A stretch of 64,000 nucleotides of DNA from Methylobacter sp. (GTDB lineage Bacteria; Pseudomonadota; Gammaproteobacteria; Methylococcales; Methylomonadaceae). The notes beneath the pieces are model-generated. The model ran no database searches. It was not told where the DNA came from and saw only the letters and a list, made by a program, of their open reading frames with translations. Shown in pieces: positions 7,953 to 58,544 of this stretch (positions are counted from its first letter, which is position 1; the number at the start of each line of letters is the position of its first letter). Both the position numbers and the translations under genes were made by a program. Location of the stretch: assembly GCA_026399025.1 (NCBI GenBank), contig JAPLRU010000093.1:50113-114112 (forward strand), written 5' to 3'.

Positions 7953-8050
7953 CGTTCCCGCGCGCCGCGTGGGAATGCGGTGGTAGACGCTCCGGCGTCC
8001 CGCAACGCTGGAGCGTTGCAAACTGAATTCCCACGCCGGAGCGTGGGAAC
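7953..8050. repeat. REP-like GC palindrome, family A
   Basis: Outer arms CGTTCCCGCGCGCCGCGTGGGAAT and ATTCCCACGCCGGAGCGTGGGAAC are nearly complementary, with an internal pair GCAACGCTGGAGCGTTGC. The same family recurs at 11728-11831, 42363-42505 and 55618-55720. It fills the gap between kdpD and the preceding gene. Confidence 0.85.
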
Positions 8051-11727: not shown

Positions 11728-11831
11728 CGTTCCCAAGCTCCAGCTTGGGAATGCAGTCTTGGAAGCTCCAGCTTCCCGGCTCGCGAAGCTGGAGCTTCGC
11801 TAACTGGGTTCCCAAGCCGGAGCTTGGGAAC
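11728..11831. repeat. REP-like palindrome, family A variant
   Basis: CGTTCCCAAGCTCCAGCTTGGGAATGC at one end and TTCCCAAGCCGGAGCTTGGGAACC at the other form nested hairpins. It differs from the other family A copies by AAGCTCCAGCTT in place of ACGCTCCGGCGT. It lies between the true kdpB end and its duplicated fragment. Confidence 0.8.
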
Positions 11832-34274: not shown

Positions 34275-34384
34275 AACATAAAACCTCAACATGTCCTGAG
34301 TAACGCCATAGCGCAGTAGATGCACTGAACCGCATCAATCGAAGACGGCGCGAGCGGTGCGGTTCGTTCCTCACCGCACCGGCC
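34275..34384. repeat. 110-bp repeat, copy 1
   Basis: AACATAAAACCTCAACATGTCC through GGTGCGGTTCGTTCCTCACCGCACC. About 85-90% identical to 36542-36655 apart from a small indel, and part of it recurs at 35319-35342. It ends in a short hairpin GGTGCGG...CCGCACC. The last codons and stop of the lyase-like gene fall inside it. The rest of the ackA-lyase gap (34178-34274) shows nothing. Confidence 0.8.
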
Positions 34385-35210: not shown

Positions 35211-35339
35211 GGGTCAGTACCGTTGTTTATGTCAAAAGGGCGTCGGAAACAGCTTAGTAATGAGCAAAATGCGCTTATCAAAAACGTTTGCTGATTTGAA
35301 TTTTCATTACGACAAGCTAAGACGGCGCGAACGGTGCGG

Positions 35340-35419
35340 TTTCTAAAAATCGTCTCATCGACATGACAGCACCTTTGTCTGTTTCTTTTTGCGGACGTGG
35401 TCTGTGAAAGACAACTTTG
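35340..35419 (-). pseudogene. hicA remnant (duplicated 3' end)
   Basis: On the minus strand it reads VVFHRPRPQKETDKGAVMSMRRFLE, nearly identical to the intact HicA C-terminus at 36127-36204, with only a few base differences. It is joined at one side to a fragment of the 110-bp repeat (35319-35342), suggesting a past recombination between repeat copies. There is no start and no N-terminal part. Confidence 0.85.
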
Positions 35420-35772: not shown

Positions 35773-36108
35773 TTACCGTATTTTGTAAGCCTTAATTTCA
35801 TCAATTAAGGCTTTTTCGACAAAGGAATCAACCGACAATTTTAACTTTTTCGCCATCACTGCAACTTCTCGATGAAGGCTTGGCGATAAGTTCAAGTTAA
35901 ACTTTCCTGAATAAGGTGTTTCAGGAGCAACACCGTCTTCTGCACACCACGCCAGATAGTCATCAATTGAGTCACAAAATGCCTGTTCAATTTCATCAAC
36001 CGATTTCCCTTGAAAAGTGATGACGGTTTTTATATTGATGACATCGCCATGAAATAATTTTGCCTGGTCATCATATTCAACCATGCCAATATAGCCTTTA
36101 TATTCCAT
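35773..36108 (-). CDS. hicB: HicB antitoxin
   Basis: 111 aa. The partial RNase H-like HicB fold is seen at MEYKGYIGMVEYDDQAKLFHGDVINIKTVITFQGKSVDEIEQAFCDSIDDYLAWC. It is followed by an Arc-type ribbon-helix-helix tail (GKFNLNLSPSLHREVAVMAKKLKLSVDSFVEKALIDEI). It neutralises HicA and represses the operon. AGGAG lies 9 nt before the ATG. It overlaps hicA by 11 nt. Confidence 0.93.
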   Translation of the reverse strand: MEYKGYIGMVEYDDQAKLFHGDVINIKTVITFQGKSVDEIEQAFCDSIDDYLAWCAEDGVAPETPYSGKFNLNLSPSLHREVAVMAKKLKLSVDSFVEKALIDEIKAYKIR

Positions 36109-36361
36109 CTTTATTGACTCCTGCGTTTTCTAAAAATCGTCTCATTGACATGACAGCACCTTTGTCTGTTTCTTTTTGCGGATGTGGTCTGTGAAAGACA
36201 GCTTTTTCTGTATTGAGTTTAATTCTAACCCGTGAGCCGTTTCCTTCCGAAATTTCTGCACCCAATGCAATGAGCAAGCTTTCAATTTCTGTCCAAGCAA
36301 TATTTGAGGACGCGGGACTTTTGAATATTTCGGCGAATGTTTTGCGCTGCTTTGAGTTCAT
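36098..36361 (-). CDS. hicA: HicA mRNA interferase toxin
   Basis: Small double-stranded-RNA-binding-like RNase toxin. From the ATG at 36361 (87 aa, GGA 7 nt upstream): ferredoxin-type IAWTEIESLLIALGAEISEGNGSRVRIKLNTEKAVFHRPHPQKETDKGAVMSMRRFLENAG. The conserved GSR and the catalytic-type His in FHRPHP are present. The track start 12 codons upstream is less likely. The 3' third is duplicated as a remnant at 35340-35419. Confidence 0.92.
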   Translation of the reverse strand: MNSKQRKTFAEIFKSPASSNIAWTEIESLLIALGAEISEGNGSRVRIKLNTEKAVFHRPHPQKETDKGAVMSMRRFLENAGVNKDGI

Positions 36362-36541
36362 GATTTTCCAATTCTTTGTTTCAAGTTCGGGAAACATGAC
36401 TGACAGTCCTTCAATGGACTGGCAGTTATTGGTTTAGTGTTTAAAAAAGCGATTGCCGTAAAGCGTTATTTTTTGCTATCGCGCCATTAATGATTTCAAG
36501 TATTCGTACCGTTAAATAATCATCACCGCCAAACCAGCTCG

Positions 36542-36655
36542 AACATAAAACCTCAACATGTCCCGAGTAACGCCATAGCGCAGTAGATGTGGTGAACGCA
36601 GTGAACCGGATCAATTGAGGATAGCGCGAACGGTGCGATTTGTTCCTCACCGCCC
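36542..36655. repeat. 110-bp repeat, copy 2
   Basis: AACATAAAACCTCAACATGTCCCGAG and so on, the counterpart of 34275-34384. The two full copies are in direct orientation and bracket the lyase-like gene, the hicA remnant and hicAB. The rest of the gap between hicA and the GAP1 gene (36362-36793) holds only a possible gene scrap on the minus strand (SWFGGDDYLTVRILEIINGAIAKNNALRQSLF), not recognisable. Confidence 0.8.
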
Positions 36656-36793
36656 CTTGCATCTTTAAAGCACTTTAATAGTGTGGATTGTACGAGATGA
36701 TTTTCGTAAACGATATTAAATCTGGATTGGAGAATATGCGAATTTTCAATTCGTTGACCAATACCTCTACTCTGTTTGAAGTATGGTTGTAAT

Positions 36794-39250
36794 TTACTGC
36801 TTCCATAGTGATTTTTGATATTTTTCAACGATCAAAATTCGCATAACCTCTATTAAATCTCGATTGTGAGGAAATGTATTTTTCAATTCGTTTGCCAAGG
36901 AACCTAGTCCGCCTTCCAACTTACCATTTTGGGCTAAGTTGGCAGCTGCCTGCCAGCGACTTGCTGGTGTACCTTCGGCCTTTAAATCCTTACGTTTTCC
37001 ACCAGCACGCTCCCAAATCTCATCCAGTTCATCAGGAGCGAGATCAGCACCTAGTTCAGCAACTCGCTGTACAAGACTTTCTGTTATGTTTGGGACATAA
37101 CTATTATTTCCAGCTTTAAACGATAATTTAATACGTTGCCACATAGTAAGTAGTTCCTGGCAGGCAGTCGCTGCTGGTAGTAGTTCGGGTATTGATTCTG
37201 ACAGATCATAGATTTTTTCTGCCGCCTTCTTCCATCCTCTATCGGACACGGTTTTTCCGATTGTTGTCACAACAGTTGATTGCCAGTCTATTCGCGTTGA
37301 AGAGGAGAGACAGCGAATTAAATCTTGCTCATTTAACGATGCTTTCGCTGACAACAGAACTGCAAAAACTTTAATCGACGGATGTGTTTCGCGTAATCGC
37401 TTGAGCAGCTCCTCAGCCAGTTGAGGTTCAAGGTTTGCAATCATCAGTCCTGCATTACACTTTCCTATTAAAACATCGGCAACCAAGGGAAGTAATGCGG
37501 CGCAACTGCCAGATTTCAATACAGTCCACAACTGCGCCCTGCCAGAATGATTGAAAGCAATATTCGCCAAGTCTTTTGCCAACGAAGCGATAAGTCCCGG
37601 CGGCTCTTGTTCTCCAGCCAGTACGGTATCCAAGAGTTTAGAACCCAGTATTTCAGGTTTGGCTTTCGTCGGCCAATAATCTCCACCTGCGGCGATATGT
37701 GCTGCCCATAATTCCCGCCAAGCGGCATGGCTAACATCCAAATCTTGCAATAACTGCGGCTCTCGCACTGTACGTTGTGCGACCAATTGAATCAATTGAT
37801 TATCAGGCGTTGAAATGACTTCGTCGATGACATCGCGGCCTGATAAATGCTCAACTAAGTATTTCAGCCCAGCGAGCATGTTGCCTGCAAATTGCCGCTG
37901 TAAACGAAAAGCCTCTGCTGGCGAAAATGCTTTCATTACCGTCCATGCGTGCAAACGCGGCCATTGACGCACCAGAGTTTGCGCTTGAAGCTGTCTTAGC
38001 GCAGTTTCAGATAATGATGTTTCAGTAGAAACATCAAGCAGGCTGTCTTCAACTATTTCACTAAAAGGAAGAATGCCGTTGAGTATCTCAGCGCAGTTAG
38101 GCAAGCCCAGCCAGTTGAGCGCAGACTTGGCCCACTGTTTATCAGGGTTAGCTAATCCGTCAGATAGTGCTTTTCGCACTGATCGTTGCCACCATGTTTG
38201 GGCTTGATTTTCTCCTAAGCCTGTGAGTAGTTGCTGTGCTTCATTCACTGATAAACAAGTAGCTTGGCAACTCACCCACATTATAAGCGCTGCTTCGGGA
38301 AGACTTTCAATGGGTAAAGATCTGGGATCCAGATTCTTAAGCAAGAACACGAAATTAGGTTGCGCCTCACTGAAACCATCATTCAGCGTCTGTAGCGCTT
38401 CAGTTTTTAAAATCGTTGCAACATCTGGAGTGGATGCTAGAACGGTCAAAGTTCGCAATAACTCAAGGGCGTTTTGCGCCTTGGAACACTCGCGCAACTT
38501 ATCCAAACGATCCGCAGCACGAGCCACAGTGCTAAGCTTTTTCAAATCACTGGAAATGGAATTGCAGGCTTTTAAAACCTCATTAAAAGTCGCATCGTCA
38601 GCACCCATCAGCCCAAGGGCGGCCCGGCTTATTGGCTTTACACCCGAATTAACGTGAACCACCGAAAAACCCGACCATTCAGGCAAGCGTTGCGCGGGTA
38701 CGCAAAAAAGCAAAGGCGGCGCGACCGACTCGCCACTTTGAGGCGGACTTACTGCCACCCGCGCAGAAAAATCGCACCGTGCCTCAGGCCACAGCCGCGG
38801 CCAAAGGTCGGCGATAATGCCCGCCCAGGAAGCCAAATCCGCGACAACCGGAGGCCGTTTAGATTCCGACGACACCAAGGCTTCCGCCACCGCACCTAAT
38901 AATTCGGGAGAGGTAGCGGCAATGCTTTCCAGACCGGATAGCGATGACAGCACAGGACGCAAGTCAGTCACAGCGCCAATCTTATCCAAGCGCCACAAAG
39001 CAACCTCACTGCGTACCATGCCGGCCCGGCTAACCGTATCATCGGGGACTGTCCACCAAAGCGCCCACCAATCTCCTACCGCGCCACAGCCCAACGAAGG
39101 CCACCAGCGTTCTCCCGGCGAATGATAGCCCGGCGGCTTGTCGGTTAAGCTCAATAACTCAGGTGGTAAAGAACCCGGTTGACCGGCCCATTCCAGCAAG
39201 CCATGACTGTTATCCTTGGCGCCGTACCGCGCTCTTAGCGGCGGAGTCAC
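36794..39250 (-). CDS. GAP1-like GTPase-associated protein with C-terminal EAD1
   Basis: Last gene of the GTPase-centred conflict system. I place the start at GTG 39250, which overlaps the DO-GTPase1 stop as GTGA; the track start is 24 codons upstream. 818 aa. The N-terminal region (LRARYGAKDNSHGLLEWAGQPG and SRAGMVRSEVALWRLDKIG) matches my memory of the GAP1-N1 domain. A long, helical, Trp/Leu-rich middle follows (about 200-720). The C-terminus (about 725-815) is an EAD1-type adaptor: LDEIWERAGGKRKDL, WQAAANLAQNGKLEGGL, FPHNRDL. The same pattern ends the phosphorylase at 42523-43842. Likely role: scaffold or regulator linking the GTPases to the effector (inference). Confidence 0.75.
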   Translation of the reverse strand: MTPPLRARYGAKDNSHGLLEWAGQPGSLPPELLSLTDKPPGYHSPGERWWPSLGCGAVGDWWALWWTVPDDTVSRAGMVRSEVALWRLDKIGAVTDLRPVLSSLSGLESIAATSPELLGAVAEALVSSESKRPPVVADLASWAGIIADLWPRLWPEARCDFSARVAVSPPQSGESVAPPLLFCVPAQRLPEWSGFSVVHVNSGVKPISRAALGLMGADDATFNEVLKACNSISSDLKKLSTVARAADRLDKLRECSKAQNALELLRTLTVLASTPDVATILKTEALQTLNDGFSEAQPNFVFLLKNLDPRSLPIESLPEAALIMWVSCQATCLSVNEAQQLLTGLGENQAQTWWQRSVRKALSDGLANPDKQWAKSALNWLGLPNCAEILNGILPFSEIVEDSLLDVSTETSLSETALRQLQAQTLVRQWPRLHAWTVMKAFSPAEAFRLQRQFAGNMLAGLKYLVEHLSGRDVIDEVISTPDNQLIQLVAQRTVREPQLLQDLDVSHAAWRELWAAHIAAGGDYWPTKAKPEILGSKLLDTVLAGEQEPPGLIASLAKDLANIAFNHSGRAQLWTVLKSGSCAALLPLVADVLIGKCNAGLMIANLEPQLAEELLKRLRETHPSIKVFAVLLSAKASLNEQDLIRCLSSSTRIDWQSTVVTTIGKTVSDRGWKKAAEKIYDLSESIPELLPAATACQELLTMWQRIKLSFKAGNNSYVPNITESLVQRVAELGADLAPDELDEIWERAGGKRKDLKAEGTPASRWQAAANLAQNGKLEGGLGSLANELKNTFPHNRDLIEVMRILIVEKYQKSLWKQ

Positions 39251-40083
39251 TCTGCCCCCAACAGCCAAGCCAGCGGACGGCTTAAGTCGGAATCTTTTTG
39301 TCCGTCGGGCGTGACGATCCAACCCTGATGTTCAGGCCCTTGATTGATGAAATTTTCATCATCGCTGCTTGCTTCCAAAAGACGGCCTAATGCGGACAGC
39401 CCCCAGATGCTCCTGGCATCAGGCGTCCAAAGGCTGTCAATAAAAGCGGCGACCAACGGCAGGTGTTTAGCCAGCACTTGATCGGGCAGCAGATCATCTG
39501 CGGTCACTTCATCGTAGCAGGACAAAAGCACAGCAAGGCGCGGCTGTTCACGGCGCGACACCGTACCCACGCCAGCCACATGCAGCAAAATCTGCAACAA
39601 CTCTACCCAGCGGGCATTAGCATCCCAAGCACCTGCCCGTGCCGTCGTGCCATTGCCATCGTCTGAACGCTTCGCAAGTTCAGCCAGCGCATCGGGATAA
39701 GTCGTTTCTTTCCTGAGTCGAATTAGCAGCAGCCAACCTTCAGCCTGACGCAGTTGTGTTCGCCAGTTTTCTGCCACTTGACGCTCTGTAAATACCGTTT
39801 GCAATTGTTCGCCGCCGTAATCGGGCCAGCGCAAATCCAGCATATGGCCGCGTTTATCCTTAAGCGGTAATAACACATCAGTCCATGTACCCACTGAGGT
39901 ATGGCTGGCGGCATTACCGTTTTCCAAGCAATGCAGTACTTCTTCCAAGGCGCTGAGGTCGGCGGGCGTGTCGCGCAGTTCCAGTAAGCCGGGATTTCGC
40001 AGCAAGCGTCCGTAAAGCTGCCCGGCATAGTGGGTTTTTCCGCTGTACGATCCGCCGAGCAAAACAATTTCAGGCGTGTGCAT
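39247..40083 (-). CDS. Double-GTPase-system GTPase 1 (DO-GTPase1-like)
   Basis: 278 aa from the ATG at 40083, chosen because GAGG lies 6 nt upstream; the track start is 7 codons earlier. P-loop IVLLGGSYSGKTHYAGQLYGRLL (residues about 6-28), switch/Walker B region LDLRWPDYGGEQLQTVF, and a strand LAVLLSCYDEVTADDL in the G4 position, where NKxD is replaced. No membrane segment. It overlaps DO-GTPase2 by 14 nt and GAP1 by 4 nt, so stoichiometric production is likely. The name follows the Pfam double-GTPase families and is from memory. Confidence 0.75.
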   Translation of the reverse strand: MHTPEIVLLGGSYSGKTHYAGQLYGRLLRNPGLLELRDTPADLSALEEVLHCLENGNAASHTSVGTWTDVLLPLKDKRGHMLDLRWPDYGGEQLQTVFTERQVAENWRTQLRQAEGWLLLIRLRKETTYPDALAELAKRSDDGNGTTARAGAWDANARWVELLQILLHVAGVGTVSRREQPRLAVLLSCYDEVTADDLLPDQVLAKHLPLVAAFIDSLWTPDARSIWGLSALGRLLEASSDDENFINQGPEHQGWIVTPDGQKDSDLSRPLAWLLGAE

Positions 40084-41035
40084 GATGACCTCGGAATGCG
40101 GCAAAAGGGTGTTGATGGAGAATAGGTTCGACGATGCGGCAGGCTTGCGGCGCTGTCCATGCAGGGCAAAGCACAGCCTCCAATGCCTTGGTCAAGGAAT
40201 CCGGTTGATTGGTGCTGGAACTGACCTCGAACGCATGAGGTATTTGTTTTGCCAATCCTTGCACAATGGCGGCACGGATGTCCGCGTTAGGTTCAACATC
40301 GTCTTTCGCCCACACAAATGCCGTTGGACGGTTAGCCACATGGTTGCTTAAACGTTCCAAAAGTTGGCGCAACTCGTTTCGGGCCGTGCCGCGTTTCGGA
40401 TTGGAGTCGGCAAGCCGCTTACAATCGGCAAAGACCAAAAATGCATCCGCGTTGCGTACCAGCCAGCGCGCGCCTTCCGCCTCGGGCGCATCTTCCTTGA
40501 CTGCCCAGCGGGTAAACCATTCTCCCGGCGCATCGGTCAGCAGCACATCCCTAAATTCGCCTGCGGTATTACGTAAGGCAAAATGCAGCAAGCCCGGTAC
40601 TCGGCTGGTGCCGCGCGGCGTGTGCGGCGGGAATGACGGCGGACGAGCGGCATCGTCAAAACGTGTCCATGCAGCTAAAGATTCCCATGCGCCCAGGGTT
40701 CGGGAACCGGCAAAACGCGCATTGGCAAGCGACTCGCCCTGCAACAGCTGCAAATAGTTGCCGGTTAACAGCGTGGTTTTGCCTGTATCGTGCGCGCCCA
40801 GTACACCGATCAAAATAGTTCGTCCGCGTGGGCTTAAATTGGCAATGTCGGCCAGGCCTAACGCGCTGCCCGACCACGGCACACGGGCTGATGTTGAAGC
40901 AGGGATTACGGTGTCGGCTTCCGTTTTGGGCGTTGTTGCCGACCACGAGGCGCATTGCGTATGTTCCATTTCGCCCAAGTGGCAGGTCTCGCCTTCATGA
41001 ACGAAACAGTTTTGATTTGTACAACGTTCACTCAT
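40070..41035 (-). CDS. Double-GTPase-system GTPase 2 with N-terminal Cys cluster (DO-GTPase2-like)
   Basis: 321 aa from the ATG at 41035, chosen because GGAGAG lies 5 nt upstream. The N-terminus MSERCTNQNCFVHEGETCHLGEMEHTQC is a small Cys/His cluster that probably binds zinc. The GTPase core follows: G1 LIGVLGAHDTGKTTLLTGNYL, G3 LLTDAPGEWFTRW, and a G4-like strand TAFVWAKDDVEP. It overlaps the GASH-like gene by 8 nt and DO-GTPase1 by 14 nt. Paired, divergent GTPases encoded side by side are the hallmark of this system class. Nucleotide hydrolysis is inferred. Confidence 0.75.
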   Translation of the reverse strand: MSERCTNQNCFVHEGETCHLGEMEHTQCASWSATTPKTEADTVIPASTSARVPWSGSALGLADIANLSPRGRTILIGVLGAHDTGKTTLLTGNYLQLLQGESLANARFAGSRTLGAWESLAAWTRFDDAARPPSFPPHTPRGTSRVPGLLHFALRNTAGEFRDVLLTDAPGEWFTRWAVKEDAPEAEGARWLVRNADAFLVFADCKRLADSNPKRGTARNELRQLLERLSNHVANRPTAFVWAKDDVEPNADIRAAIVQGLAKQIPHAFEVSSSTNQPDSLTKALEAVLCPAWTAPQACRIVEPILHQHPFAAFRGHHAHA

Positions 41036-42341
41036 GAAGCTCTCCAGCCAGTTGCACCGCTTGTTCTTGGCGGAATAAAGCCTGGGCAAACTGGGGCAAA
41101 CTCATTTCAAACTCGCCGCTTGCGCCGACGCGGTTGAGTGCATCTGCAAAATCTTGCGTCTTGCCGGTCAAGACTAAAACCGCCGCATCGCGCAAACTCA
41201 AACGGCCTGTGTCGGGTGGCGCGGTGAGTGTCTCCAACCAGTCTTTGGAAAGTTGCTGACGCGCTTGGTCGAGTTCTTCGAGTAAGGTTTGTAAGCTGAT
41301 TTTTTGATTAAAACTTGCTTCAGACAGTCGGTTCACTGCTTCGGCAAGCAAATAGCCAACGCTGGCGGGGGTCGGCTTGGCCACCTCGTTGAGCAGGTCA
41401 ACTGTCATCACCATAGAGGCAATGGCAGGGGTGAGTTCACGATAACTGCAACGTAACGAAGACGAGTAAAGCGCTTCCGACCACCACAGGGCATTTAGGC
41501 GGATTTGCTCGGCTTGCTGGGTTCGTTGTACCCAGTCTTGTTGAAGAGCTAATGTTTCATTCAGTAATCCGGTAAAGTCAGTTAGACAGGCTTGTACCTG
41601 CTGGTTTACATCTGACTGGGATTTACCTAATTTAATGGCTAAAGCATCCAGTTCATCGGCAAGCAATTGTTGCATTCTTGGCGCAAACTGGTAAGACCAC
41701 TGATGGCCTACGTTCGGCCAATGAGGATTTGGATCGTCCATCGTTTGGCTCTGTGCGTTATGCGGCCCAGCCGCTCTTTCCACCTTTTGTAATAACGCAG
41801 CCCTATTAACTTTGGGTGATTCAAGTTTTGTGATTTTTGGCAACTGTAATTCCCCAACAGTTGTTTGCTCGGCCTCATCAGCAGTCAACGCAAGACCCGC
41901 CAGCGCCTTCTCTTCCGCGCGCCCTGCCCACGCCTCCAACATACTCCGTACCACCGCCTCTTCCCTGCCCAACTTTAACAACGGCAAAGTATCCGCCGCC
42001 GTCAGCCACAAAATAGCCGCGTTGTTGTCCTCTTCCGCCACTTGATTACAAGCATCCAACAAAATAGCCCTGAGCAAATTGACCGGCATATCGGGAAACA
42101 CCGAACGCACCGCTTTCCATTCCGCCACCAAGGCTTGTTCGGCTTGGACAATAATGGGATCGTCCTCAGCTATATCCGCAGCCAGCCCCACCAGAATAGC
42201 CCGAATCAATAGCAACGGCTGTTCGCGGAGTTGTTGAGCGACGGTTTTAGCGGCTTGCTCGATTTTTGAAAAACGCTCGTCATCACCGTTAAGGTTTTCG
42301 ATAAGGCCAGCGTTTAACAGCCCGGTTAGTAATTCAGTCAT
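41028..42341 (-). CDS. All-helical GTPase-associated protein (GASH-like)
   Basis: 437 aa from MTELLTGLLNAGLIENL at 42341, preceded by GGAG; the track start 58 codons upstream reads through the palindromic repeat and is rejected. The sequence is almost entirely predicted helix, with an N-terminal block FSKIEQAAKTVAQQLREQPLLLIRAILVGLAADI, a middle linker (about 200-250), and a C-terminal half rich in Leu/Ala heptads. It has no enzymatic motif. It resembles the family that Pfam/NCBI call GTPase-associated system helical domain (GASH); this is from memory. Expected to bind the two GTPases encoded immediately downstream. Confidence 0.65.
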   Translation of the reverse strand: MTELLTGLLNAGLIENLNGDDERFSKIEQAAKTVAQQLREQPLLLIRAILVGLAADIAEDDPIIVQAEQALVAEWKAVRSVFPDMPVNLLRAILLDACNQVAEEDNNAAILWLTAADTLPLLKLGREEAVVRSMLEAWAGRAEEKALAGLALTADEAEQTTVGELQLPKITKLESPKVNRAALLQKVERAAGPHNAQSQTMDDPNPHWPNVGHQWSYQFAPRMQQLLADELDALAIKLGKSQSDVNQQVQACLTDFTGLLNETLALQQDWVQRTQQAEQIRLNALWWSEALYSSSLRCSYRELTPAIASMVMTVDLLNEVAKPTPASVGYLLAEAVNRLSEASFNQKISLQTLLEELDQARQQLSKDWLETLTAPPDTGRLSLRDAAVLVLTGKTQDFADALNRVGASGEFEMSLPQFAQALFRQEQAVQLAGELHE

Positions 42342-42362
42342 GCAAATCTCCAAAAAACAATT

Positions 42363-42505
42363 GTCATCGTTCCCACGCTCCGGCGTGGGAATGCAGGCAG
42401 CAACGCTCCAGCGTTGCGGGGCTACAGCCGCAGCTGAAGCATTTGTATACGGGACGCTGGAGCGTCCATGACGGCATTCCCACGCCGGAGCGTGGGAACG
42501 ATGAC
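42363..42505. repeat. REP-like palindrome, family A, inside the GTPase system
   Basis: GTCATCGTTCCCACGCTCCGGCGTGGGAATGC and its complement at the far end form near-perfect 32-nt arms, with an inner GGAGCGT pair. It separates the phosphorylase effector gene from the GTPase core genes and may decouple their expression or stabilise one mRNA segment. Confidence 0.9.
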
Positions 42506-42522
42506 GGTCAGTCAAGTCGGCC

Positions 42523-43842
42523 TTATTTATTCAAAAGGCCGAGGTAGCGTAAAAGCACATCATTATTAGGAAAGTCGTCCAATGCGGCTTGCACTATCAT
42601 TTCGGGACGCGCCAGAGCCCCTTGCATATTCCGTTGCCAAAGTCGTTGCCAGAGATCAAAAGGTCTTGAATTATTTTCAACATCACGGGCTTTGCCGCCT
42701 GCACGTTGCCATAAAGCGCGGGCATCCCGTACATCGGGATATTCTTCTGCGAGAACTGCAAGTAGATCGCGTGGCAGATTCAAATCTATTGCTTCGGTTG
42801 AGGTGCTTGTATAGGGCGCGGGGCTGGTCATGGCATTATCGGCACAATCAGACAACAAGTCGGCGGATTTTCTGAGTAACGCAAGCAAACATTCTGCCGC
42901 CGCTCTGGCGGCAAACTCCCTGTAACGATTATCTTTAAATGAGTCGCCATAGTCCGATACACCTTTTGCGACTAAAACAGGTATGTTATGAATTTCTCCT
43001 AACGCGCCCAACGCGCTTGCTTCCATTTCGATGCCAAGGACTTTACGCATAGACTCTGCAAGATGAGGAAAGATACTTTCATTTTCGCTAACAGCTGCTC
43101 CCGTCGCCATAGGTGCGACATGAATATTGAAATCAGGTGGCGAGGAAGGATTGCCGTGATAGAGCAAGTTTAATTCTTCAGCTCGTTGTTGTCCCGCAGC
43201 CGTTAACGTTAAAGGTTTTTCCAACCATTTACGCTGCCAAAGACGCGGCAGGACATCGCTCCAGTTCGGGCAAGCGGTATCACAATCGGCGTGTTGACTT
43301 GGATCTTCCCCAGCAAGAGCCCTAAGCAAAACCCAGTCTTCTTGCTGTTCTAACGATAATGCCGGACGTAAACTTAACCATGATGTGTTTAGCGCAGGGA
43401 CAGACACATGCTGCATCCGTTGCACCCAAGTTGACGACGGACGATATTGAAGTTGGTCGCCTTGAAATCGTTCTTGACCATCTTCTACCGTCAACTTGCC
43501 CGCATCATAAGACCAGAGCCGTTCGGCGAAAATTACATCGCCTAAAGCCACTTTACCTCGACGCCCTGCGCAAATGCCGCTCATTGCGATACAACGCGCC
43601 GGTTGATCATGGATGAGTTTACTTGCAGTAGCTTGAGCCTGCTCTCGCCCCATATAACTGGCGTGTGTTGCCCGAATACTTAACGTACTTCCCGACGAGG
43701 TGGTGAAACGAGCATCGGCTATCATCCAGCCGCTGTCTAGCGGATGTTCTTGCCAATCTGTCTGAAGGCCATCGGCGACTTTAAGGACTTGGTCGTACTC
43801 ATCTTTTAATGCGCAAATCAGTAATATATCGACATTAGCCAT
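42523..43842 (-). CDS. Nucleoside phosphorylase-EAD1 fusion, putative effector
   Basis: 439 aa. Residues 1-330 are a PNP/UDP-phosphorylase or MTA/SAH-nucleosidase fold: ICALKDEYDQV at the start, AMSGICAGRRGKVALGDVIFAERLWSYDAGK (about 86-116), the ribose-binding ME in GIEMEASALG (M273-E274) and the catalytic Asp in KGVSDYGD (D297). The core is interrupted by a helical, winged-helix-like insert (about 140-230, containing LWQRKWLEKPLTLTAAGQQRAEEL). Residues 355-439 are an EAD1 domain: ALWQRAGGKARDV, LWQRNMQGAL, FPNNDVLLRYL. All key residues are intact, so it is probably active on a nucleoside or nucleotide. First gene of the system. Confidence 0.82.
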   Translation of the reverse strand: MANVDILLICALKDEYDQVLKVADGLQTDWQEHPLDSGWMIADARFTTSSGSTLSIRATHASYMGREQAQATASKLIHDQPARCIAMSGICAGRRGKVALGDVIFAERLWSYDAGKLTVEDGQERFQGDQLQYRPSSTWVQRMQHVSVPALNTSWLSLRPALSLEQQEDWVLLRALAGEDPSQHADCDTACPNWSDVLPRLWQRKWLEKPLTLTAAGQQRAEELNLLYHGNPSSPPDFNIHVAPMATGAAVSENESIFPHLAESMRKVLGIEMEASALGALGEIHNIPVLVAKGVSDYGDSFKDNRYREFAARAAAECLLALLRKSADLLSDCADNAMTSPAPYTSTSTEAIDLNLPRDLLAVLAEEYPDVRDARALWQRAGGKARDVENNSRPFDLWQRLWQRNMQGALARPEMIVQAALDDFPNNDVLLRYLGLLNK

Positions 43843-43904: not shown

Positions 43905-46568
43905 TCAAGCCGATTTGTAGATCAAGCTCTTACTCGCCACTTCATAAACATCTTTAGAAATTGCCTCAGTGTTCATAATCCGTTCCAGCTGAGTTTTCAT
44001 CAAGGCCTGTCTACCTTCATCATATCTGCGCCATCCTGTTAATGCACCGACCATGCGTGAGGCAATCTGCGGATTCAAGGTGTTCAGTTCGATAATTCGG
44101 TCGGCAAGAAATCGATAACCTTGCCCGTTGGCGGCATGGAAATGCAACGGGTTTGACTGGCTGAACGCGCCTATCAATGACCTGACGCGGTTTGGATTTT
44201 TTAAGTCAAACGCAGGATGATTCATTAACGCTTGCACGGTCGCAAAGGTATCGGGCATGCTGCTGGAAGCCTGCAACGCAAACCATTTGTCGATAACCAA
44301 GGCTTCCGCTTGCCATTGGCGATAAAAACTGTCCAGACATTGCTGTTTGGCGGGATGCGGATTGTTGACGATAACCGTTAACGCGGCCATTTGATCGGTC
44401 ATGTTTTTGGCGCTGTTAAATTGCAGTTGCGTCAGTTGGTGAATGTCTCTGTTTTCAAGTTTGCCTAGGTAACTTAAGCAGGTGTTTTTAATGCGTCTGC
44501 GGCCAATCGCGCCGGCATCGAATTTTCCGGATTCATCGCGATGATTGTTCCGGTATAAAGTCTGGAAGTGGTTTTGCAGTTGTTCGGCCAAGGTCAGCAT
44601 TACAAATTCACGGGCCGTATGGATGGCTTCGACATCGACAAGCTGCATTTGTTCGGCCAGATAGGTTTCCGAGGGCAGGTTTAACAATAAAGAAAAATAC
44701 GACAGGTCGTCCCACGGCTGTTCCAGAACTTGCTTAAAGGCGTTAATCATGATCGGATTGACCTGCATGTCCCGGCCGTTTTGCAGGTCGGCAACTAATC
44801 CCATAATAATCTGCCCGGCCAGTTGCTGCCCGGCTTCCCAGCGATTAAACGTATCTTTGTCGTAACTTAATAAAAACGCCAGTTCATCCGGACTGCGCTC
44901 CATCACCAGTTTAACCGGCGCGGAGAAGCCTCTTAAGATCGAAACGACCGGCTGTTCCGCTAGGTTTTCAAAGGTAAATAATTGCTCGGCCTCAGTCAGT
45001 TGCAGAATGACTTCGTCGCGGGCTTGATTGCTGCCCTGCAATTGACATGGCGCGACAGCACCGGTTTTATCGATTAAACCGACCGTTACAGGGATGTGCA
45101 AGGGTTCTTTATGCGCTTGTCCCGGCGTTGGCGGGCAGCTTTGGCTTAGGCTTAAGGATAGGGTTTGCGCCGCTGGATTGTAGTGTTGCTTAACGGTTAT
45201 TACCGGTGTTCCGGCCTGCGCATACCAGCGGCGGAATTGAGTCAAGTCAATGTCATTAGCCGCTTCCATCGCGTTGACGAAATCCTCGCAAGTCACCGCT
45301 TGACCGTCATGACGCTCAAAATATAAATCGCTGCCTTTGCGGAAACCTTCCGCACCCACCAAGGTATGAATCATGCGCACCACTTCCGCGCCTTTTTCAT
45401 ACACGGTCAAGGTGTAAAAGTTGTTGATTTCGATGTAGGCTTCGGGGCGTACCGGATGCGCCAACGGACCGGCGTCTTCGGCAAACTGGCGGGTGCGCAA
45501 CATATTGACGTCTTCGATACGCTTAACCGCTTTGGAAGTGCGGTCGCCGGTAAATTCCTGATCGCGGAATACGGTAAAGCCTTCTTTTAAACTGAGCTGG
45601 AACCAATCCCGGCAGGTGATACGATTGCCGGTCCAGTTATGGAAATATTCATGGCCGATAACGGCTTCAATCGATTCATAATCGGAATCGGTTGCGGTAT
45701 CGGGCCGCGCCAATACGAATTTGGTATTAAAGACATTAAGACCTTTGTTTTCCATTGCGCCCATGTTGAAGTGGCCTACCGCGACGATCATGTACAGATC
45801 CAGGTCGTATTCTCGGCCGTAGACGTGTTCATCCCAGCGCATCGCGTTTTTTAACGATTCCATGGCGTGCTCGCATTTGTCCCTATCGTGTTTTTCGACA
45901 AAAATTTGCAGGTCGATGTCTCGGCCGGATTGCGTAGTAAAGCGGTCTGCGATGCATTCGAGTTGCCCTGCAACCAATGCGAACAGATAACACGGCTTGT
46001 TGAACGGATCTTCCCAGGTCACCCAGTGGCGGTTGTCGGGCAATTCGCCTTCAGCGATTTTATTGCCGTTGGATAATAAAACCGGGTAACGGTCTTTGTC
46101 CCCGACCAAGGTTGTGGTGAACAGAGTCATCACATCGGGGCGGTCCAGGAAATAGGTGATTTTCCTGAAGCCTTCCGCCTCGCATTGGGTACACAACATA
46201 CCGTTGGATAAATACAGCCCTTCCAGCGCGGTATTGGCTTTCGGGTTAATGATGTTTTCGATGGTCAGCACAAAGCGTTGCTGCTGAGGAACCGTGTTAA
46301 TGATCAAGGCATCATGGGTTTGCAGGTATTGATCTTTGGTTAAGTCGTTGCCGTCATCCAGATTAAGGCGGATCAGCTGTAGGCTTTCGCCCGATAGGAT
46401 CAGTGTGCTGTCTGTTGACAGGCTGGCGGGGTTACGGCTCAGGGTGAGTCGCGAAATCACCCGTGTGTTTTCGTCATCCAGCGCAAAATTCAAGGCGACA
46501 CTGTGAATCAGGTATTCAGGTACCGTGTAATCTTTGAGATAAATGGTTTGTGGATTAGGGTCGCGCAT
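43905..46568 (-). CDS. pepN: Aminopeptidase N
   Basis: M1-family zinc aminopeptidase, cytosolic. 887 aa from MRDPNPQTIYLKDY at 46568, chosen because homology begins here and the ATG shares a base with the upstream DUF423 stop (TAATG). The substrate-binding GAMEN motif is in GHFNMGAMENKGLN. The zinc site is HEYFHNW with the downstream Glu in LSLKEGFTVFRDQEF. It is the last gene of the moaB-DUF423-pepN operon. The ORF track's 975-aa version is too long by 88 codons. Confidence 0.96.
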   Translation of the reverse strand: MRDPNPQTIYLKDYTVPEYLIHSVALNFALDDENTRVISRLTLSRNPASLSTDSTLILSGESLQLIRLNLDDGNDLTKDQYLQTHDALIINTVPQQQRFVLTIENIINPKANTALEGLYLSNGMLCTQCEAEGFRKITYFLDRPDVMTLFTTTLVGDKDRYPVLLSNGNKIAEGELPDNRHWVTWEDPFNKPCYLFALVAGQLECIADRFTTQSGRDIDLQIFVEKHDRDKCEHAMESLKNAMRWDEHVYGREYDLDLYMIVAVGHFNMGAMENKGLNVFNTKFVLARPDTATDSDYESIEAVIGHEYFHNWTGNRITCRDWFQLSLKEGFTVFRDQEFTGDRTSKAVKRIEDVNMLRTRQFAEDAGPLAHPVRPEAYIEINNFYTLTVYEKGAEVVRMIHTLVGAEGFRKGSDLYFERHDGQAVTCEDFVNAMEAANDIDLTQFRRWYAQAGTPVITVKQHYNPAAQTLSLSLSQSCPPTPGQAHKEPLHIPVTVGLIDKTGAVAPCQLQGSNQARDEVILQLTEAEQLFTFENLAEQPVVSILRGFSAPVKLVMERSPDELAFLLSYDKDTFNRWEAGQQLAGQIIMGLVADLQNGRDMQVNPIMINAFKQVLEQPWDDLSYFSLLLNLPSETYLAEQMQLVDVEAIHTAREFVMLTLAEQLQNHFQTLYRNNHRDESGKFDAGAIGRRRIKNTCLSYLGKLENRDIHQLTQLQFNSAKNMTDQMAALTVIVNNPHPAKQQCLDSFYRQWQAEALVIDKWFALQASSSMPDTFATVQALMNHPAFDLKNPNRVRSLIGAFSQSNPLHFHAANGQGYRFLADRIIELNTLNPQIASRMVGALTGWRRYDEGRQALMKTQLERIMNTEAISKDVYEVASKSLIYKSA

Positions 46569-46975
46569 TATTTGTACCTGCTGTAGTGGTCGGAAGACCG
46601 GGTGTTTGAAACGGCGAACACAGCGATTAATAACCAAGCTGTTAAAAAACAAACGCCGCCGATAGGGGTGATCATGCCTAGCCAGGTATGATTGAGTAGC
46701 GCCAAAGCATATAAGCTGCCGGAAAACAGCAGGATGCCTGCGAACATCAAGCATCCGGCCCAGTGCAGTAATTTGGAGTTGGAGGCTTGCCGGTGGATCA
46801 GCGCGACGCCGACTAAGCCCAGCGCATGCCACATCTGATAAGTGACGCCGGTTTGGTAGACGGCCAGCATCTCCGGGCTGATGACGGTTTTTAAGCCGTG
46901 AGCGCCGAATGCGCCCATGCCGACGCCGGTTAATGCGCTTAATGAGCCCAGCAGTAAAAAATTCGGCTTCATCAT
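46568..46975 (-). CDS. DUF423 membrane protein (YgdD-like)
   Basis: 135 aa with four membrane helices. The N-terminal LLLGSLSALTGVGMGAFGAHGLK and the middle YQTGVTYQMWHALGLVGVAL are family hallmarks, as is ITPIGGVCFLTAWLL. Function unknown across the family. The ATG overlaps the moaB stop (ATGA), and the stop overlaps the pepN start (TAATG), so it is tightly embedded in an operon. Confidence 0.9.
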   Translation of the reverse strand: MMKPNFLLLGSLSALTGVGMGAFGAHGLKTVISPEMLAVYQTGVTYQMWHALGLVGVALIHRQASNSKLLHWAGCLMFAGILLFSGSLYALALLNHTWLGMITPIGGVCFLTAWLLIAVFAVSNTRSSDHYSRYK

Positions 46976-55617: not shown

Positions 55618-55720
55618 ATCGTTCCCACGCTCCGGCGTGGGAATGCCGAAGTACCGCTCTAGCGGTACGGGACGCAGGAGCGTCCCTCACTGCATTCCCA
55701 CGCCGGAGCGCGGGAACGAT
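55618..55720. repeat. REP-like palindrome, family A
   Basis: ATCGTTCCCACGCTCCGGCGTGGGAATGC at one end and GCATTCCCACGCCGGAGCGCGGGAACGAT at the other, with inner GTACCGCT-CTAGCGGTAC and GGACGC-AGGAGCGTCC hairpins. It occupies the ubiA-DUF2782 divergent gap (55549-56025). The remainder of that gap shows only presumed promoters. Confidence 0.9.
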
Positions 55721-57719: not shown

Positions 57720-58544
57720 TTACAAAACAAACTCAATGCCACTGATGTGTTGATCCAGCCAATATAAAACGTCCTTGCCTTGATGAAACTCGGTTTCATC
57801 GAAGTCAAGGGCTTGGTTGTGACTTAAGATTGCCCAGCGGGACAGTCGGCTTTTTAACTGTCCCTGTTCGCTGACCGTAAAATGATAGCGTTGTGTCAGT
57901 TGTTTAATCAGTTGGAGTTCAGGCGCCGTTATCGTTCTCGCCAAACGGCTTAATTCCGCCAACACTATTTCAATCGTTGCAACATGAGCGCCCATCAATA
58001 AAGCCACCTGCTTGGCTTCTATATTTTCGGCAGACGATGATTCATTATCCGAAATAACTTTCAGGCATTGGATTAATTCACCTGACGAAAACCGTGCCGC
58101 AGTTTCATAAAAGGCAGACGCTTCCATGTCGTAAACGCAGTCCGGAGCGTAGTTAAGTTGCGGCTTCGATACGGTGTGAAGACTTGCGGTGGGACAAGGC
58201 GGTTTGAAAACCAGCGGCGGATAATAGCTTTTGCCGACATCAACGTCGGTGATTTTGTCGATTAAAAACAACGTGCCCAAATCGTGATTTTGATGACCGG
58301 CAATACCGATATTGATCAGCACCGGATGTTCAACCGAAGCAAACAGCGCCTGAGAGTAAGCGACTCCGGCAGCCATCGCGTTTTTCCCCAGTCCGGTTAC
58401 CGTCAGGCATAGTTCCTGATTAAAATACAACGCAAACGGCTGAATCGTCGTGGCTTTTTTTAAACGGAAATACTCGACCAACGGCTTGGCCTCGCAAGGC
58501 AGGGCGGCGTAGATAAAAATCCGGCAAGGGCTTTGTCGATTCAT
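57720..58544 (-). CDS. Nucleoside phosphorylase-fold protein
   Basis: 274 aa. PNP-fold features: FIYAALPCEAKPLVEYF at the start, VTGLGKNAMAAGVAYSQAL, LINIGIAGHQNHDLGTLFLIDKI, DMEASAFYETA (ME motif) and CLKVISDNESS (Asp of the ISD motif). The C-terminal 80 residues are an extra helical region ending WLDQHISGIEFVL that ordinary MTA/SAH nucleosidases lack. No EAD1 is seen. The substrate is unknown; hopanoid-associated phosphorylases are another PNP-fold group to consider. Convergent with sirB2. Confidence 0.75.
   Translation of the reverse strand: MNRQSPCRIFIYAALPCEAKPLVEYFRLKKATTIQPFALYFNQELCLTVTGLGKNAMAAGVAYSQALFASVEHPVLINIGIAGHQNHDLGTLFLIDKITDVDVGKSYYPPLVFKPPCPTASLHTVSKPQLNYAPDCVYDMEASAFYETAARFSSGELIQCLKVISDNESSSAENIEAKQVALLMGAHVATIEIVLAELSRLARTITAPELQLIKQLTQRYHFTVSEQGQLKSRLSRWAILSHNQALDFDETEFHQGKDVLYWLDQHISGIEFVL

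Follow-up and report, generated by a model that had tools for sequence, protein, structure and literature searches.

Bacterial immunity is predicted to include a class of GTPase-centric conflict systems of the GAP1-N1 type, with PNPases listed among the effectors and EAD1 domains described for GAP1 as well as for its effector (Kaur, Burroughs, Iyer and Aravind, 2020; PMC7159879). These PNPases have been proposed to produce second messengers through base removal (PMC7159879), and the PNP of the Detocs system splits ATP into adenine and ribose-5'-triphosphate (PMC11249213; PMC10952713). Here, we analyze a five-gene operon located in a stretch of 64,000 nucleotides (nt) from the methane-consuming bacterium Methylobacter sp. 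(contig JAPLRU010000093.1), hereafter the window. Judged on its sequence-testable defining features, all of which it displays, this locus is a new instance of a GAP1-N1 type GTPase-centric conflict system, and we consider it probable that its effector is a (d)ATP-cleaving nucleosidase related to that of Detocs. The first-pass annotation of the window had likened the operon to the computationally described double-GTPase/GAP1 systems, a match which is supported (PMC7159879), and knew of no experimental characterization of it; full-text searches of the open-access literature likewise turned up none. The PNP effector which it highlighted is indeed present but, being already on the 2020 list (PMC7159879), is not new. 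The added value of this locus is the testable prediction of a GTPase-licensed ATP cleavage.

The core is conserved and the effector exchanged

Open reading frames (ORFs) and Pfam matches define five genes running in the same direction on the minus strand of the window (36794-43842), in the following order of transcription:

42523..43842, minus strand: PNP-superfamily nucleosidase effector (residues ~1-325) with a C-terminal EAD1 (~359-432), 439 residues (Pfam PNP_UDP_1 1.4e-11, EAD1 9e-5)
41028..42341, minus strand: GASH all-helical protein, 437 residues from the ATG at 42341 (Pfam GASH 1.8e-111)
40070..41035, minus strand: DO-GTPase2 with an N-terminal zinc ribbon, 321 residues (Pfam 4.1e-73)
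39247..40083, minus strand: DO-GTPase1, 278 residues (Pfam 2e-84)
36794..39250, minus strand: GAP1-N1 protein with a C-terminal EAD1, 818 residues from the GTG at 39250 (Pfam GAP1-N1 3.8e-26, EAD1 2.1e-5)

Pfam families are matched by 5/5 proteins of the operon, and the search with hidden Markov models recovered every family named in the first pass (GAP1, DO-GTPase1/2, GASH, EAD1 and PNP_UDP_1), the five ORFs lying at the position and on the strand that had been reported. The starts of GASH (42341), DO-GTPase2 (41035), DO-GTPase1 (40083) and GAP1 (GTG 39250) are backed by homologues, and with these starts the overlaps of 8, 14 and 4 nt noted among the last four genes are exact. For GASH, the longest ORF begins farther upstream, at 42515, and the ATG at 42341 was preferred on homologue support.

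Both P-loops described previously (GAHDTGKTT and GGSYSGKTH) are present in the DO-GTPases, which also keep a DxxGE motif (DAPGE in DO-GTPase2, DYGGE in DO-GTPase1, with YGGEQ conserved). From its position in the motif, the Glu residue would stand where Ras has Gln61, and the conserved Glu of these GTPases was remarked by Kaur et al. (PMC7159879). The cysteine cluster of the first GTPase corresponds to four invariant cysteines in DO-GTPase2, equivalent to the zinc ribbon described by Kaur et al. (PMC7159879). The G4 motifs are altered, as had been noticed, but we rejected this trait as a peculiarity of the locus since it is found throughout both GTPase families, all aligned relatives having [A/T/S]KxD in DO-GTPase2 and [S/T]C[W/Y]D in DO-GTPase1. 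The guanine-contacting Asp is invariant (D264 in DO-GTPase2 and D198 in DO-GTPase1) and CxDE is conserved in DO-GTPase1.

Related loci were retrieved through DO-GTPase1, 80 from named genomes together with plasmid, phage and Methylobacter loci, and 87 were analyzed; with a set chosen in this way, co-occurrence is conditional on DO-GTPase1, and Methylobacter tundripaludum SV96 is counted twice. GASH, DO-GTPase2 and GAP1 are each present in 86/87 loci, in the order GASH-DO-GTPase2-DO-GTPase1-GAP1, the gaps including truncated contig ends. Homologues are hence not mostly alone, the finding which the first pass had named as counting against its own proposal. What varies is the EAD1-bearing partner, the most frequent being a BLAST-linked, caspase-like cluster of 53 members (the member of locus L009 is a caspase by Pfam), followed by 18 PNP, two trypsin-like, one TIR/SEFIR, one TIR, one calcineurin phosphoesterase and two unclassified proteins. 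In the branch around the window system, the effector is encoded upstream of GASH, in a slot which alternates among PNP, TIR and phosphoesterase, while the other loci mostly have it downstream of GAP1. Four Bacteroidota loci (L098-L100 and L104) have a longer GAP1 without EAD1. Pfam was run on L098 among these, where a direct PNP-GAP1 fusion takes the place of the EAD1 link, and a CHAT protease is fused to GAP1 in L039. These direct fusions therefore link GAP1 to the effector independently. Altogether, the GASH-DO-GTPase2-DO-GTPase1-GAP1 core is conserved and the effector exchangeable.

These data bear on whether the operon could fulfill a housekeeping function, namely nucleoside salvage with regulatory GTPases and no role in conflict. 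Although the PNP fold is mostly metabolic, the effector is exchanged for proteases, TIR and phosphoesterase, GAP1-N1 is present in 3/61 relatives and DO-GTPase1 over cut-off in 5/398 genomes of the phylum, and the closest copy, in M. tundripaludum SV96 (DO-GTPase1 95%, PNP 83%), lies at a different chromosomal place. Effector exchange and patchy distribution largely exclude a metabolic operon, which we regard as very improbable.

The PNP effector and a possible GTP-gated mechanism

Across 17 aligned PNP proteins, E15, M273-E274 and S296-D297 are invariant and the catalytic residues are thus intact. We take E15, E274 and D297 to occupy the positions of the general acid E12, the ribose-binding Glu E174 and the catalytic Asp D197 of methylthioadenosine/S-adenosylhomocysteine (MTA/SAH) nucleosidase. 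This enzyme is also the best NCBIfam match of the window PNP, with 52.1 bits, far under the equivalog cut-off of 169 bits. The PADLOC model PDC-M60C matches the window PNP at 4.4e-43, and it also matches receiver-PNP proteins from Klebsiella and Escherichia coli plasmids at 2e-103 and 2e-174. The genes of these receiver-PNP proteins sit in three- to four-gene plasmid operons, the layout of which we take to be that of Detocs, an identity resting on architecture. With phmmer, the window PNP domain reaches ~102 bits against the receiver-PNP proteins of these Detocs-like operons, and no other PNP in the comparison, those of GAP1-N1 loci with a downstream effector and of its own genome included, exceeds 18 bits; the phylogenetic tree also places it with the receiver-PNP proteins (support 99/97). 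By sequence, the window PNP is therefore grouped with the receiver-PNP proteins of Detocs-like operons, apart from both MTA/SAH nucleosidase and the remaining tested PNPs of GAP1-N1 systems. From its proximity to Detocs-like PNPs and its distance from other GAP1-N1 PNPs, GAP1-N1 systems seem to have acquired PNPs more than once, the window PNP belonging to the type for which ATP destruction is most likely, and (d)ATP cleavage is the specific prediction to be made for it. Of note, Pfam detects no receiver domain in the window effector and its partners are GTPases, so that it lacks the receiver and kinase by which Detocs is defined.

Regarding the other components, AlphaFold models GAP1 (predicted local distance difference test, pLDDT, 92.5) with a beta domain at the N-terminus, followed by a long alpha-solenoid and an EAD1 helical bundle, and GASH (pLDDT 93) as a nearly all-helical protein with one helix of ~78 residues, plasmid and phage rows having been left out of the alignments. 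The structure search with GAP1 returned generic alpha-solenoid matches only, Ran-bound importins among them, and nothing at E <= 0.001, so that these matches are not used as evidence; a sequence search for solved relatives of DO-GTPase2, GASH and GAP1 gave none that was convincing. The EAD1 of the PNP protein scores 23.3 bits in a protein scan (Pfam cut-off 24.2) and 27.7 bits, above the cut-off, in a six-frame scan, which found two EAD1 copies in the whole 5.2 Mb genome, both in this operon (PNP and GAP1). Moreover, GAP1 and effector EAD1 distances covary across loci beyond DO-GTPase1 distance (partial r 0.56, p 0.001, in a test known as lenient).

It is quite possible, if short of probable, that the operon encodes a GTP-gated immune ATP nucleosidase, in which two paralogous GTPases, with the alpha-solenoid GAP1 and GASH as sensor or scaffold, control a Detocs-type PNP through EAD1. 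For the explanation that we favor, a GAP1-N1 system with a probable (d)ATP-cleaving effector, we propose these events. At rest, the two DO-GTPases, probably as a heterodimer, would keep the system off, an action in which GASH and the alpha-solenoid of GAP1 take part. GAP1, GASH or both would sense an infection cue, upon which the GTPase state would flip, and the PNP protein would then be recruited by GAP1 via an EAD1-EAD1 contact and activated by oligomerization. The active PNP would remove adenine from ATP, dATP or a related nucleotide, so that phage replication and the cell come to a halt together. The sensing, the order of the GTPases, the EAD1 contact, the substrate and the anti-phage outcome are all steps that we infer.

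Several observations weigh against this interpretation. The PNP tree has long branches, and the window PNP contains an insert of ~70-80 residues (~160-230) which is absent from the compared Detocs-like proteins, making another substrate possible. The open-access literature searched yielded no experimental test of any GAP1-N1 system, the defence function thus being inferred, and GASH has no structural relative in the PDB at E <= 0.001. Finally, the two EAD1 copies of the operon share only 24% identity, and neither resembles the other more than it does the copies of other loci (rank 38/76); homotypic pairing therefore lacks the support of similarity. The own GAP1 EAD1 ranks first for 3/76 loci only, and the tendency of adjacent EAD copies to be closest is not observed. 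On the same identity and rank, the idea that the EAD1 pair of this locus is unusually alike was rejected.

The insert, which is specific to the clade of the window PNP, also leads to an alternative in which system and defence role are the same but the PNP, rather than depleting ATP, would form or break down another nucleotide (a signal, an NAD-like or an S-adenosylmethionine-derived molecule). The messenger generation proposed for PNPases by Kaur et al. (PMC7159879) and the best NCBIfam match, despite its 52 bits for 169 required, are in line with such an activity. On the other hand, the nearest relatives tested outside GAP1-N1 systems are the receiver-PNP proteins of Detocs-like operons, and neither SLATT nor another messenger-gated partner was identified among the scanned neighbours; we hence see a different nucleotide as unlikely, albeit worth keeping in mind, and favor (d)ATP cleavage.

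Further PNP-domain proteins were observed in the same genome. One, in the window itself (57720-58544, PNP_UDP_1 7.7e-8), is probably metabolic. At L131 (G000:C78:58675-59277), a PNP-domain protein, likely another PNP immune protein, is followed by an apparent NACHT-type NTPase, whose long open frame is reported to span 1309 residues. L130 (G000:C24:104560-105258) has an open frame of 619 residues in which EAD1 was not detected and whose N-terminal PNP domain resembles the PNP effectors that other GAP1-N1 loci encode downstream.

Distribution, mobility and genomic surroundings

The system is rare, sporadic and mobile. GASH was found in no other genome among 370 of the class, and a DO-GTPase1 scan of viral contigs gave no match. 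DO-GTPase1 is carried by 22 plasmids, 16 of them conjugative, and the Leptospira phage vb_LkmZ_Bejolso9-LE1 (L008; KF114878.1 13374-19959) has a full GASH-DO-GTPase2-DO-GTPase1-GAP1-PNP operon adjoining the phage integrase. In M. tundripaludum SV96, GASH is interrupted (L011:2560-3918) by a transposase-like ORF of 452 residues and, because of this split, the copy is probably inactive. The two Methylobacter copies could be compared for four genes, with dN/dS values of 0.11-0.27 (0.16 for PNP), indicating purifying selection. The genes on either side of the system are not related from one locus to the next; integrases, transposases and resolvases are among them, as are some defence genes, known or candidate, a composition that does no more than suggest a defence-island setting. 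Homologues occur in mobile or defence-like settings.

Such surroundings raise the question of whether the operon protects a mobile element or governs competition between elements (plasmid addiction, inter-plasmid or prophage conflicts) rather than defending the cell against lytic phages. The conjugative plasmids (16/22 plasmid records), the phage copy beside an integrase, the recombinases in the flanks and the hicAB pair adjoining the window locus would fit this function. Nevertheless, mobility is common to defence systems and hence does not discriminate, and the effector repertoire overlaps known anti-phage effectors; an element-centred role thus appears improbable to us, and cell defence remains the preferred function.

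Two additional features lie in or next to the operon:

42363..42505, no strand: palindromic repeat element between PNP and GASH, with 52-nt arms, 90% complementary
35773..36397, minus strand: hicA-hicB toxin-antitoxin pair, a neighbour outside the system (HicA 1.4e-12, HicB 1.6e-16)

The region had been called repeat- and toxin-rich, a fair description with hicAB just downstream and the inverted repeat at 42363-42505, the core motif of which recurs in the window. This core, GTTCCCACGCTCCGGCGTGGGAA, has 7 copies in the window at up to 3 mismatches for 0 expected, at 42363-42505 (inside the operon, in the PNP/GASH gap), 55621-55717, 11729-11831 and 8028-8050. In Methylomonas LW13 (L026), the PNP-GASH gap is ~13 nt as opposed to the repeat element of the window. 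No RNA family was found in the window, and no further defence cluster in its scanned parts. A hicA remnant of 84 nt (35335-35418), 95% identical to part of hicA, lies 787 nt from hicAB, and direct repeats of ~110 nt, 83-93% identical (34275-34380 and 36542-36656), flank hicAB and a polysaccharide-lyase-like stretch, possibly as the footprint of a duplication or integration. Eight Methylobacter relatives have a pteridine-reductase-like gene directly after pepN, and in the window genome the system follows pepN (43905-46832). A simple insertion with an empty site was rejected, since the pteridine-reductase-like gene is on another contig (G000:C132:34876-35601); the boundary reflects a rearrangement and insertion ends are not claimed.

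Comparison with known systems

A GTP-gated immune ATP nucleosidase, if confirmed, would be without precedent among defence systems, ATP destruction being licensed by a paired GTPase switch, and would imply the transfer of a Detocs-type PNP between phosphotransfer and GTPase-based systems. Our analysis also suggests that one type of immune PNP effector is common to two-component and GTPase-based systems. With a complete locus, intact enzyme motifs and effector relatives whose activity is known and easily measured, the operon is a good test case for GTPase-run bacterial immunity.

As in the GAP1-N1 systems described to date (PMC7159879), the locus has two DO-GTPases, one with a zinc ribbon, a GAP1-N1 downstream of the GTPases, GASH and not FNIII, an exchangeable effector, and EAD1 on GAP1 and effector. 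It differs from them by the effector upstream of GASH, and not downstream of GAP1, in its clade, by a Detocs-like PNP and by own-pair EAD1 copies that are not mutually closest. With Detocs and Cap17-type immune ATP nucleosidases, it shares a homologous PNP domain, the same catalytic motifs and probably the same (d)ATP cleavage; unlike in Detocs, the effector has neither receiver domain nor histidine-kinase partner, EAD1 and the GTPase core replacing phosphotransfer. MTA/SAH nucleosidase, an enzyme of nucleotide salvage, has the fold and the catalytic Glu/Asp positions of the window PNP (E15, E274 and D297), whereas the latter is far under the NCBIfam cut-off, has an insert and EAD1, and sits in a conflict operon. 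Lastly, the operon of the Leptospira phage vb_LkmZ_Bejolso9-LE1 (KF114878) combines the same GASH-DO-GTPase2-DO-GTPase1-GAP1 core with a PNP-EAD1 effector, but its PNP is of another type and is encoded downstream of GAP1, beside an integrase.

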